From positions 1,035,501-1,099,500 of the forward strand of contig NZ_CP049074.1 in the NCBI RefSeq assembly GCF_013343295.1: DNA of 64,000 nucleotides. The letters are read 5' to 3'. Positions 8,857 to 13,281 of the stretch are shown in pieces; the first letter of the stretch is position 1; the number at the start of each line of letters is the position of its first letter. Position numbers and translations under genes: made by a program. The notes under the pieces were generated by a model, which saw only the letters and a list, made by a program, of their open reading frames with translations, was not told where the DNA came from and searched no databases. The DNA comes from Metallosphaera tengchongensis. GTDB lineage: Archaea; Thermoproteota; Thermoprotei_A; Sulfolobales; Sulfolobaceae.

Positions 8857-10248
8857 ATGTCATTTACGGACGTCCTATCTAAGTTAGGGCAGATATTACC
8901 AGCTGTAAAGAAACCAGAACAAAAGCCTAATCTAAATCAGAAATTATTGTGGTCAATTGTTGGGGTTGTAGTTTACCTTCTTATGTCTTCAGTACCTTTA
9001 TACGGAATTCAAAGCACCTCATTAAGTAATTTTCTTTTGGAACAAGTTATATTTGCGTCCACTGCTGGAACTCTTGCCCAACTTGGTATAGGTCCTATAA
9101 TTACAGCGGGTCTAATAATGCAGATTTTAGTAGGCTCTAAATTGTTGAACTTAAATCTAAATAATGAAGACGACAAGGCGAAGTTTACAGAGGCCCAAAA
9201 GGGTCTTGCATTTATTTTCATTCTAATAGAATCATTTCTATTCGGATTCGCACTTAGCAGATCTTCGGGGCTGACAAATTTCAACATACCTTTGATTGTA
9301 GCAGGCCAGCTAATCATCGCTACTTATTTCATCCTTTTATTAGATGAGCTAATACAGAAGGGATGGGGGCTGGGCTCTGGAGTTAGTCTATTCATCCTAG
9401 CTGGGACGATGAAGATCATATTCTGGTATATGTTTGGTATAGTAAACGTCCAGTCTCAGAATTTGCCTGTTGGGTTTTTCCCATCCCTAGTAACTACAAT
9501 TGTAGATCATGGGGACTTGTTATCTTTAATAGTGAACACAACAAAACCATTTCAACCTGATTTAGTCGGTCTAATCACCACCATTTCTCTCATTTTCCTA
9601 ATAATATATCTCACATCCATAAATGTTCAGATTCCAATCACCTCACAAAAGCTCAGGGGGATAAGGAGAACTATACCACTTAACTTCCTTTATGTTAGCA
9701 GCATCCCAGTAATCTTTGTGAGCGTCTTAGGTGCAGATATAGAGTTATTTTCATCATTGACATCTTATATTTCATCCTCTGCAAGCAGTTTCCTTAACGC
9801 TATTCAGTCTGCGTTTATTTTCCCACCTCCCAACACTACAATACCTCACAGCGTATATGCGGTAGTTGAAGATCCTATTGGTGCGATCATATATTCCGCT
9901 GTTTTCATTGTGTTAGGGATATTATTTGGAATAGTCTGGGTAGAAGTTTCAGGTTTGGATCCAGCCACTCAAGCTCAAAATCTAGTAGACGCTGGAATAG
10001 AGATACCTGGAATGAGAAATAGTCCAAAAATGATTGAGGCAGTGTTGGCAAAGTATATATATCCTCTGGCATTTTTCAGTTCTCTGATTGTCAGCGTTAT
10101 AGCGGTTGGAGCTACGTTGTTGGGGGTGTATGGAACTGGCGTAGGTATACTCTTAGCTGTATCAATTGCCATGCAGTACTATAGCCTTTTGGCATACGAA
10201 AGATCTATAGAGATGTATCCTCTATTAAAGAGACTGATAGGTGAATAA
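8857..10248 (+). CDS. secY: Preprotein translocase subunit SecY
   Basis: SecY is the channel-forming subunit of the Sec translocon in the cytoplasmic membrane. About ten hydrophobic segments can be counted over 463 residues. The cytoplasmic loop with [26 protein letters not shown] (about residues 261-286) and the late loop [19 protein letters not shown] that contacts ribosome and partner proteins are well conserved. Its place after L15 and before adenylate kinase is typical of archaea. Confidence 0.97.
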
Positions 10249-10250
10249 GT

Positions 10251-10832
10251 TTGAAGCTGGGGATCGTAACCGGAATCCCAGGAGTAGGAAAAACAACTGT
10301 GTTAAATACCATAAAGGAGATATTGACAAAAAATAATGCAAAATTTATCATAATGAATTACGGCGACTATATGCTGAAGACAGCAATAGAGCTGAAGTAT
10401 GTTAATAATAGGGATGAGATACGAAAATTACCATTGAATTTGCAAAGAGAACTACAACTTGAAGCCGCAAGGAACATTTTTAGGGATGCGTCTTCATTAG
10501 GTGACGGACTGTCATTTTTGGACACGCATGCGGTAGTCAGAACACCTGGTGGTTATTTACCAGGTTTACCTAAGCACATAATAGAGATCTTACAGCCTCA
10601 GGTTATATTTCTTATAGAGAGTGAACCGGAGCAAATATTGAAGAGACAATCTAATGATAAGACCAGATCCAGAACAGACTACTCGGATCCTTCTGTAATA
10701 AAGGAAACTATGGACTTTGCTCGCTTCTCAGCTATGGCTTCAGCTGTGTTAGTTGGAGCATCCGTAAAAGTAGTGAAAAATGTGGAAGGCGATCCAGCAG
10801 TTGCTGCTAATCAGATAATATCTTCTCTTTGA
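10251..10832 (+). CDS. adkA: Adenylate kinase, archaeal type
   Basis: AdkA converts ATP and AMP to two ADP. This is the archaeal trimeric family, distinct from bacterial Adk: a Walker A P-loop GIPGVGKT at residues 8-15 and 193 residues in total. The start is TTG two bases after the SecY stop. The gene order secY-adkA is common in Crenarchaeota. Confidence 0.93.
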
Positions 10833-10838
10833 TGTAAT

Positions 10839-11282
10839 ATGTCATATCAAATCTTTTTAATTCTCTTTTTATCTCTTGGGATCAATCTAATTATATATGT
10901 ATTTTATAGATTTTTAATTTCTAGGAGACTATTCGAATACATTGGGAAGTTAGACAGCTTACAAAATAGAATGAACAAGGTTGCCTCTAAAAGAAGGGAA
11001 AGGGTTTACAGAAAAATCTCTAAAGATATAAAGAAATATAATAATGTAATTTATTTTTATTCAATGATGCAGTCTATTTTGCTGCTAGCGCTTTATATTG
11101 TGGGCATGTTTCTGGTCTTTCCGATGAGTTTCCAGGTGTTCCTCCCCTTCGCAATCCCTGTTTTAACAGTAGGAGTATCGGGTAGATTCGAGGTAGTTGA
11201 GGGTCCTATTTTGATCTATATTTTATCTTTTCTTCTGTTTACACCACTCTCGCTTAGAAGACCCAAAGCAAATATAAACTAA
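10839..11282 (+). CDS. EMC3/TMCO1-like (DUF106) membrane protein
   Basis: This 147-residue protein has a first membrane segment at about residues 5-23, a basic cytoplasmic coiled section (RMNKVASKRRERVYRKISKDIKK) and two more hydrophobic segments after residue 70. That layout and the position after secY and adkA match archaeal DUF106 proteins, which belong to the Oxa1/YidC superfamily with eukaryotic EMC3 and TMCO1. A role in membrane-protein insertion beside SecY follows from the family. Confidence 0.8.
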   Translation: MSYQIFLILFLSLGINLIIYVFYRFLISRRLFEYIGKLDSLQNRMNKVASKRRERVYRKISKDIKKYNNVIYFYSMMQSILLLALYIVGMFLVFPMSFQVFLPFAIPVLTVGVSGRFEVVEGPILIYILSFLLFTPLSLRRPKANIN

Positions 11283-11310
11283 GCTCCATAACTCAGATAG
11301 GGGATGCTAG

Positions 11311-11538
11311 ATGAGACCCTTTCAAAGGACTAGTTCTTTAAGAAAAATTTCTAGAAGAACTCCTTCAGGAAAAAGTAAAACATTGCTAAAGAGTAGGAGG
11401 AGAAACTCCAAGACTTGTGCGTCCTGTAAAAAGTTACTGAGGGGTAACCTCAGATCGGAGAATAGGATGTTTGGTGGATATCTTTGTCATCGATGTTTAA
11501 GTAAGTACATTAAGGTCTCGCTGAGAGGAATTTCATGA
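11311..11538 (+). CDS. rpl34e: 50S ribosomal protein L34e
   Basis: L34e is a small archaeal/eukaryotic ribosomal protein. Two CxxC pairs (CASC and CHRC) form the zinc site, and the N-terminus is Arg/Ser-rich as usual. Length 75 residues. The stop overlaps the ATG of cytidylate kinase by 4 nt. Confidence 0.88.
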   Translation: MRPFQRTSSLRKISRRTPSGKSKTLLKSRRRNSKTCASCKKLLRGNLRSENRMFGGYLCHRCLSKYIKVSLRGIS

Positions 11539-12077
11539 TTCTTGTTGTGAGCGGTCCTTCTGGAAGCGGTAAGACAACAATAGCGAAATCCCTCTCTTCA
11601 AAGTATGGATTTAAATTTCTATCAGGCGGTCAGATTTTCAGAAATAAGGCTCAAAGCTTGGGTATAGATCTACTATCATTAAATAAACAAGCAGAACGTG
11701 ACTTCGACATAGATAGAATGGTAGATAGAGAAATCTTGATGGAAGCTAGGAAATCCAATGTGGTTATCGAGTCTCATATCGCTGGGTGGATTCTGGCTGG
11801 GGAATCGACGCTAAGTATATACCTCTGGGCTCCCTTGGAGGAGAGGGCTAGGAGAATAGCTTCAAGAGACAATATTACCTATGAGCAAGCTCTTCTTTCA
11901 ATCTTAAGCAGGGAGCAAAGTCACTATTTTAGGTTTTGGAAATATTACGGAATAGATATACAAGACACCTCACTTTATGATTTAGTTATTAATACCTCTA
12001 AGTTATCTCCAGATAACGTTCTAAAAACAATTGCACAGTTTCTAGACTCTTACATTCAGTCTACCCCGTGGAAGTAA
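11535..12077 (+). CDS. cmk: Cytidylate kinase
   Basis: Cmk phosphorylates CMP/dCMP to the diphosphate. The P-loop GPSGSGKT lies at residues 7-14, followed by the LSGGQIFR nucleotide-binding segment and the lid helix RRIASRDNITYEQA. The 180-residue archaeal type lacks the large insert of the bacterial enzyme. It is the last housekeeping gene before the membrane locus that follows. Confidence 0.92.
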   Translation: MILVVSGPSGSGKTTIAKSLSSKYGFKFLSGGQIFRNKAQSLGIDLLSLNKQAERDFDIDRMVDREILMEARKSNVVIESHIAGWILAGESTLSIYLWAPLEERARRIASRDNITYEQALLSILSREQSHYFRFWKYYGIDIQDTSLYDLVINTSKLSPDNVLKTIAQFLDSYIQSTPWK

Positions 12078-12093
12078 AATATGCGCACTATAG

Positions 12094-12333
12094 ATGATGA
12101 CTGGCATAGAATCTTTTGTGCAACAGATTACTACTCAAGTAACTGAAATAGCGTGGAGCGTGTTCATATTAGCCTGGGCTGTGGGTTGGGCTCTAAGAGG
12201 TTCCCCTATTCCCATCTTTAAGATAAAGCGAACCGGCCAGGACTTCATTGAGGACGCAATTATGGCTGCCTTTTGGTTGGCTTTAGGTACTACTGTATTT
12301 GCTCTAGTCTCTTACATAGCAGGTCAATTCTAG
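12094..12333 (+). CDS. cedA1: CedA1-like two-helix pilin subunit of the Ced DNA importer
   Basis: The 79-residue protein has two hydrophobic helices (about residues 19-34 and 52-76) joined by a basic turn (residues 43-46, KIKR). Short two-helix proteins with a positive loop are the VirB2-like layout, and CedA1 of Sulfolobales has this form. In Sulfolobus acidocaldarius cedA1 stands beside cedA and cedA2, the arrangement found here; the assignment rests on this architecture and order. Two tandem ATGs open the frame with no Shine-Dalgarno, so a separate leaderless transcript is possible. CedA1 forms pili in relatives, which is family knowledge. Confidence 0.75.
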   Translation: MMTGIESFVQQITTQVTEIAWSVFILAWAVGWALRGSPIPIFKIKRTGQDFIEDAIMAAFWLALGTTVFALVSYIAGQF

Positions 12334-12341
12334 GTGATATT

Positions 12342-13118
12342 ATGAACGCATTCGAAATCTTAGCTATTTCCCAAGATCTGTCTTCCTTAACGTATTTTAT
12401 AGGAGCTCTAATAATGGCTTTGCCTCTACCGGTGTATGGCTTAAAGAGATGGGGACCAAGGATGATAGTGGATGGAATATATGCGTCTATTTTGGTGAAC
12501 CTTTATGAGTCATTCCTCACTCTAATGGAAAATTTAGGAAACATGCTAGGAGTAAATTGGGCCTACTATATGAATTGGATCTATCAGCTTCTCCTTGGGG
12601 AACTTGAAGTGTACACTACAATAAAAACAATTTACTCTGTGGCAATATCTGCACCTTACTCTGGGTTTAATCCATTTCTAGCTACAATTGGGCTACTGTT
12701 GTCTATGATATCAGGGTTTATGAGTGTTACTGGAACCATAATAGTGATTTCCCAATTAATATTGAATTATTCCGGACTAATTATATCTCTAGGGATTCTC
12801 CTTATGTCACTCCCTTTTAGGATCGGTAGGTCTATTGGAGGTTCCATGATAGCCTTTGGGATTGTATTTTACTTAGGTTTACCCCTTCTCCCTAATTTCC
12901 TTTCTAGTTTCGGCGTAAATATATTGCAACAGGGTTTTTCTCAATCTGAGCTTAACTCTATATCGGGACTTGCAACGATAGTTATTCCGGCCTACATAGA
13001 AGGTACGGTATTGATGCCGTTGGCTTATATAGGAATCCTGACGTCAATAACTCTAGGTTTAGGCTCGGCAATATCCGGATCTTATTCCAGGTTACCTATA
13101 CCTGTTGATTTCTTATGA
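12342..13118 (+). CDS. cedA: CedA-like polytopic membrane protein, Ced DNA import channel
   Basis: The protein has 258 residues and about six or seven hydrophobic segments. The frame is open from 12273, but ATG 12342 with GGTGAT at 12333-12338 is the start, just after the cedA1 stop. Size, topology and flanking two-helix proteins match CedA, the membrane component that imports DNA together with the CedB ATPase in Sulfolobales. CedB is not in this window. Residues 22-54 closely resemble the second half of CedA1, and residues 152-178 repeat the same pattern more loosely. Confidence 0.75.
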   Translation: MNAFEILAISQDLSSLTYFIGALIMALPLPVYGLKRWGPRMIVDGIYASILVNLYESFLTLMENLGNMLGVNWAYYMNWIYQLLLGELEVYTTIKTIYSVAISAPYSGFNPFLATIGLLLSMISGFMSVTGTIIVISQLILNYSGLIISLGILLMSLPFRIGRSIGGSMIAFGIVFYLGLPLLPNFLSSFGVNILQQGFSQSELNSISGLATIVIPAYIEGTVLMPLAYIGILTSITLGLGSAISGSYSRLPIPVDFL

Positions 13119-13128
13119 GGTATATATT

Positions 13129-13281
13129 ATGAAATCAAGAATATTAGTTTCTGCTCTTTTAATATATTCTTCGATAGTCACATATATTGAAACAAAAAAT
13201 ATACCTTTAAGCCTTATATCACTCATGTTAGCAGTAGTAATCTACATAGCTATATACGCTATTTCGAAGAAGATTGAGTAG
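13129..13281 (+). CDS. cedA2: CedA2-like small two-helix membrane protein
   Basis: This short gene encodes 50 residues with two hydrophobic segments (about residues 4-19 and 25-45) and a basic C-terminal end, SKKIE. It starts 10 nt after cedA; GAGGT at 13117-13121 serves as Shine-Dalgarno. A third small membrane protein at this place completes the cedA1-cedA-cedA2 arrangement. The sequence itself carries no motif that I can recognise, so the name depends on context. Confidence 0.62.
   Translation: MKSRILVSALLIYSSIVTYIETKNIPLSLISLMLAVVIYIAIYAISKKIE

Follow-up and report, generated by a model that had tools for sequence, protein, structure and literature searches.

A pilin-like hairpin at the N-terminus of the archaeal channel protein CedA and a candidate second copy in its other half

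The CedA1 pilin and the N-terminal region of the channel protein CedA share ancestry, and every test that we applied supported this. Additionally, the second half of CedA probably carries a diverged duplicate of the same two-helix hairpin, for which our data are suggestive but fall short of proof. The analysis concerned a stretch of 64,000 nucleotides from Metallosphaera tengchongensis (NZ_CP049074.1, positions 1,035,501 to 1,099,500), hereafter called the window. A first-pass annotation of the window had known of no description of the pilin-channel likeness. For the N-terminal part this was mistaken: Beltran et al. (2023; PMC9905601, Discussion and Supplementary Fig. 2c,d) had reported homology between almost all of the CedA1 pilin and the N-terminal region of CedA, one of the two being derived from the other. 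For the second half the statement held, since our literature search found no paper describing a further pilin-like hairpin, be it in CedA or in VirB6. The second hairpin is the addition made here.

The ced locus and the first hairpin

Three ced genes follow one another in the window:

12094..12333, + strand: cedA1, conjugative pilin of 79 aa (NCBIfam Ced_CedA1, E 6.8e-40, above cut-off)
12342..13118, + strand: cedA, VirB6-like channel protein of 258 aa (NCBIfam Ced_CedA, E 6.3e-110, above cut-off)
13129..13281, + strand: cedA2, two-helix protein of 50 aa (NCBIfam Ced_CedA2, E 1.2e-6, below cut-off)

Both CedA1 (NF041797, 135 bits against a cut-off of 100) and CedA (NF041796, 366.8 bits against 330) reached the equivalog level. 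The spacing between their genes is 8 bp, and a second ATG at 12097 is an equally possible start of cedA1. CedA1 also matched the Aeropyrum CedA1 pilus subunit, PDB 8dfu_B (E 4.4e-24; family profile E 8e-35). CedA2 scored 28.6 bits against a cut-off of 80 (NF041798), yet its match was full-length and the protein is present in related genomes; as a further hairpin copy it was rejected, since it has no pilin-like motif and no match to the hairpin profiles. The comparison drew on 90 cedA loci and 84 pilins from the order, and the pilin and channel genes were adjacent in nearly all of the loci examined.

A cytidylate kinase-like gene lies directly 5′ of cedA1-cedA-cedA2 (window 8857-13281), a housekeeping setting that is unusual for DNA-import genes. 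The kinase-like gene belongs to what we take to be a secY-adenylate kinase-membrane protein-ribosomal protein cluster. The sequence AGTTTC at 12037-12042, 57 bp upstream of cedA1, agrees with the Sulfolobales UV-inducible hexamer ANTTTC; ANTTTC-like sites at about -48 to -57 were found in 8 of 22 Sulfolobaceae loci (expected, 0.22 per 100 nt).

The features of the first hairpin are as follows:

12136..12327, + strand: CedA1 residues 15-78, homologous to the CedA N-terminus (hhalign against CedA 5-68, E 9.5e-12)
12211..12285, + strand: motif copy in CedA1, residues 40-64 (sequence comparison, pilin conservation)
12354..12545, + strand: hairpin 1, CedA residues 5-68, a paralogue of the CedA1 pilin with helices at 3-26 and 32-69
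12429-12503, + strand: hairpin 1 motif, CedA residues 30-54

The first-pass annotation had aligned CedA1 40-64 (PIFKIKRTGQDFIEDAIMAAFWLAL) with CedA 30-54 (PVYGLKRWGPRMIVDGIYASILVNL) without gaps, and we reproduced both this alignment and its coordinates. The homology extends well past these 25 residues. In profile-profile comparison, CedA1 15-78 and CedA 5-68 matched over 62-64 columns, nearly the whole pilin, with an hhalign probability of 97-98% and E-values of 1e-11 to 1e-16; a similarity of this strength over both helices is too extensive for convergence. The match held in subsets taken alone (Sulfolobaceae, E 1.4e-9; other Ced systems, E 2.6e-14; distant pilin/channel pairs, E 2.2e-7). 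Single sequences sufficed as well: window CedA found pilins by phmmer, and the reverse, and BLASTP of window CedA against window CedA1 gave E 8e-5 in a five-protein set. The NCBIfam CedA1 model matched window CedA at E 3.5e-6, and the CedA model matched window CedA1 at E 1.8e-6.

The signal also stood beyond the membrane-protein background. Column-shuffled decoys that kept the hydropathy track reached at most 36.7, compared with a score of 68.3 for hairpin 1. When the CedA-family HMM was run against 177,635 PDB sequences, membrane proteins included, the Aeropyrum CedA1 pilin 8dfu ranked first (E 2e-11). In the genome that contains the window, just two places matched the pilin profile at E<=1, namely cedA1 and the N-terminus of cedA, and genome-wide searches with the CedA profile recovered the cedA1 gene as an additional match in most Ced-bearing genomes. 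Moreover, the motif is conserved at both sites in orthologues (55 pilins and 71 CedAs), with G31, P38, P40, G48, E53 and D54 invariant among the 55 pilins.

A candidate second hairpin in CedA

Two features mark the second half of CedA:

12705..12917, + strand: CedA residues 122-192, candidate hairpin 2, structurally like the CedA1 pilus subunit (predicted fragment model, VIA-align)
12786..12866, + strand: looser motif copy, CedA residues 149-175, G151-x6-P158-x-R160-x2-R163-x2-G166-x2-[LM]-I170 (hhalign, conservation)

A looser copy of the motif had been noted before at CedA 152-178, which reads ILLMSLPFRIGRSIGGSMIAFGIVFYL. Family profiles placed a match at exactly this site, here delimited as 149-175; it was significant at the level of the family but not within Sulfolobaceae alone. 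With Ced sequences only, CedA 5-68 matched CedA 76-258 at E 3.8e-3 (hhalign), and with four distant channels added the match improved to E 5.4e-4 (score 23.4); the signal between the two copies thus rose as distant sequences joined the profile. None of 600 hydropathy-preserving decoys reached the score of the CedA N-terminus against the rest of CedA, the decoy maximum being 19.1. The pilin profile matched the second-half region at E 0.013, a score that 2 of 600 decoys also reached. All six split-half tests returned the same motif-to-motif match (E 4e-4 to 5e-3), as did non-Sulfolobaceae Ced sequences alone (E 2.8e-3). With Sulfolobaceae-only profiles the match to copy 2 was absent, the best match lying elsewhere (E 0.07). 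The alignment requires a gap of two residues between the proline and the basic residue, covers about 27 columns and has an hhalign probability of 30-50%.

No signal came from other CedA segments (E 0.05-0.7; N-terminus against middle, 0.08, and against last helix, 0.07), nor from SecY as a real membrane control (E 0.2-0.3). The middle hairpin (70-148) and the last helix were consequently rejected as extra copies, having no match in the profile comparison. A search of PDB sequences with the hairpin-2 HMM gave no match.

Conservation follows the two copies. Six columns are invariant in 71 CedAs, and all of them fall inside the copies (G21, P28, P30 and K35; P158 and G166), while G151 and R160 are near-invariant. 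The pattern G-x6-P recurs with equal spacing in the pilin (G31-P38), copy 1 (G21-P28) and copy 2 (G151-P158), and is followed in all three by a basic residue, a glycine and [LM]-I.

In the AlphaFold2 model of CedA (pLDDT 94.8), both motifs sit in inter-helix loops, at 27-31 and 156-162, and the predicted layout of hairpin 2 comprises the end of helix 107-155, loop 156-162 and helix 163-189. When CedA 104-192 was folded alone (pLDDT 90.1), the CedA1 pilus subunit 8dfu_0 headed the VIA-align ranking of PDB candidates. For the single fragment folded, its Z of 7.2 (3.2 Å, 71 residues aligned; next match, 5.9) lies within the range that helical pairs reach through their common arrangement and is not conclusive. 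The alignment ends imply a register at most one residue from that of the motif alignment. In Foldseek, the pilin was not among the matches of the hairpin-2 model at E<=10. Together, sequence and fragment fold are suggestive of pilin-family membership for hairpin 2.

Origin of the hairpins and possible docking of the pilin

Convergence would account for hairpin 2 if only hairpin 1 were homologous to the pilin: many membrane hairpins have a helix-ending glycine or proline, a basic loop on the cytoplasmic side and small residues against which the next helix packs. We consider this a real possibility, albeit one that we somewhat doubt. The short gapped alignment with its probability of 30-50%, the lack of support from Sulfolobaceae alone, the indecisive VIA Z and the absence of any internal repeat in 13 bacterial VirB6 sequences from 13 plasmids (E 0.39) all speak for it. 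However, convergence on common hairpin features sits poorly with the 0/600 decoys, with the failure of every other CedA or SecY hairpin to match, and with the same register being recovered in several subsets and in the structural match. For the N-terminus, by comparison, it is very improbable that shared selection on one surface contacting the same partner, instead of ancestry, produced the similarity. Such a surface would suit the fact that R388 VirB6 binds the pilin through its N-terminal helix region, but 62-64 columns over both helices at E 1e-11 to 1e-16 strongly disfavour it, and so does the adjacency of the two genes. The first-pass suggestion that pilin and channel present the same surface in the assembled machine fits the published R388 VirB6-VirB2 data and does not compete with common ancestry.

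We regard it as unlikely that the hairpins stem from separate fusions, or from homogenisation in each lineage, rather than from one ancient duplication. In a hairpin tree of 64 columns, the pilins and channels of three distant systems (two of them in Caldarchaeum-like genomes) cluster together apart from the rest, and the motif FxPGVSR is common to the L142 pilin and its channel. Nevertheless, a single ancient pilin clade was not rejected (p-AU 0.128, on 64 columns only), and within Ced the pilins form one clade and the channel hairpins another (95/88 and 93/78). The pilin/channel split is therefore older than the diversification of Ced; there was no sign of recent conversion, and cognate homogenisation within Ced was discarded as unsupported by the tree.

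Taken as a whole, the data are in our judgement probably best explained by a common hairpin ancestor, a second copy in CedA and VirB6-like docking. CedA1 and the first two CedA helices go back to a single two-helix hairpin of the membrane. CedA as a whole would most likely consist of pilin-like hairpins in tandem, together with extra helices, with copy 2 formed by helices 107-155 and 163-189 and the loop P158-R160-R163-G166; such a build would explain the fit between pilin and channel. The earlier proposal of a channel made by duplicating and fusing a pilin-like unit gains moderate new support from hairpin 2, short of proof. By analogy with the solved R388 type IV secretion system, CedA may assemble as a VirB6-type pentamer; within the membrane, CedA1 subunits would bind hairpin 1 much as pilins pack against each other and then enter the DNA-conducting pilus. 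Hairpin 2 would supply CedA with a further pilin-like surface, and a part for it in the pilus assembly platform is a guess.

In R388, VirB6 alpha-1/alpha-2 is the VirB2 recruitment site, as indicated for the first transmembrane helix by co-evolution, by the mutants T41F, G48I and V60E, and by a VirB10 segment that overlaps the site (PMC9259494, PMC11294453). Because this recruitment helix matches by position the pilin-homologous region of CedA, the simplest reading would be homotypic docking, the channel offering the pilin a hairpin of the pilin's own kind to bind. The absence of VirB3 and VirB8 homologues reported for archaea (PMC11868833) counts against a docking role borrowed from R388.

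We put forward more tentatively that the core of the VirB6/CedA channel goes back to an ancient event in which a VirB2/CedA1-like hairpin was duplicated in tandem. Both copies would serve pilin handling, the first in recruitment within the membrane and the second as part of the platform for the pilus base. Homotypic pilin-like contacts would then accompany pilus growth throughout. In the small bacterial set, neither VirB6 nor VirB2 matched Ced significantly by sequence. VirB2 matched VirB6 best at TrwI 23-57, the published recruitment helix (E 0.013), and next at 198-224 (E 0.14), both suggestive but not significant. The archaeal hairpin-1 profile best matched TrwI (L185:6127-7155) at 196-227, in the second and not the first hairpin (E 0.007, not significant), a pattern that an internal duplication could yield.

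These findings bear on the seating of a conjugation pilus on its channel and on the order in which the two arose. If the same hairpin builds both, docking becomes a concrete, mutable interface that could be tested in Saccharolobus, for which DNA-import assays exist; the interface residues would be CedA G21/P28/P30/K35/D44 and G151/P158/R160/G166 against CedA1 G31/P38/P40/K45/D54.

Comparison with related systems

The window system does not differ in essentials from the Ced system of Sulfolobales, Aeropyrum and relatives: the genes are the same, and CedA1 and CedA pass the NCBIfam equivalog cut-offs. Like other Sulfolobaceae CedA, however, window CedA is without the ectodomain of about 200 aa of longer Ced relatives. 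Most non-Sulfolobaceae CedA proteins have about 450-480 aa (e.g. L023:1501-2841, L049:1212-2567, L066:1164-2567), because this probably extracellular domain is inserted before the last helix; in L023 it starts like CarboxypepD_reg (Pfam E 0.002). CedE, a Saccharolobus CedA paralogue (PMC11868833), is homologous to CedA over its whole length (NCBIfam CedE against window CedA, E 9e-52; against window CedA1, E 1.7e-7) but, unlike CedA, is confined to one genus.

In the Ted system of Thermoproteales (TedA, TedC), the pilin gene adjoins the channel gene as in Ced, whereas its pilin is described as processed and pairwise similarity as undetectable (PMC9905601). Three further loci (L142, L143 and L144) have CedA/VirB6-like channel genes of about 280 aa directly behind a gene that encodes a small, probably secreted pilin-like protein, so that Caldarchaeum-type archaea have a DNA-transfer module resembling Ced and Ted. 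In L142, a second CedA-like gene (L142:2252-3427) overlaps the end of the first and has both hairpin motifs and a C-terminal extension. Neither a scan of viral contigs nor tblastn against plasmids matched CedA-like channels.

HHpred has linked CedA with TedA and TedA with VirB6, and Beltran et al. reported weak VirB2-VirB6 homology (PMC9905601). The best PDB chains for the full CedA model by VIA-align were TrwI/VirB6, with Z 9.4 for residues 70-245 and Z 8.8 for 1-243; Foldseek gave an E-value of about 0.1. By predicted fold, CedA would resemble TrwI of R388, a system in which VirB6 alpha-1 recruits VirB2 (TrwL).
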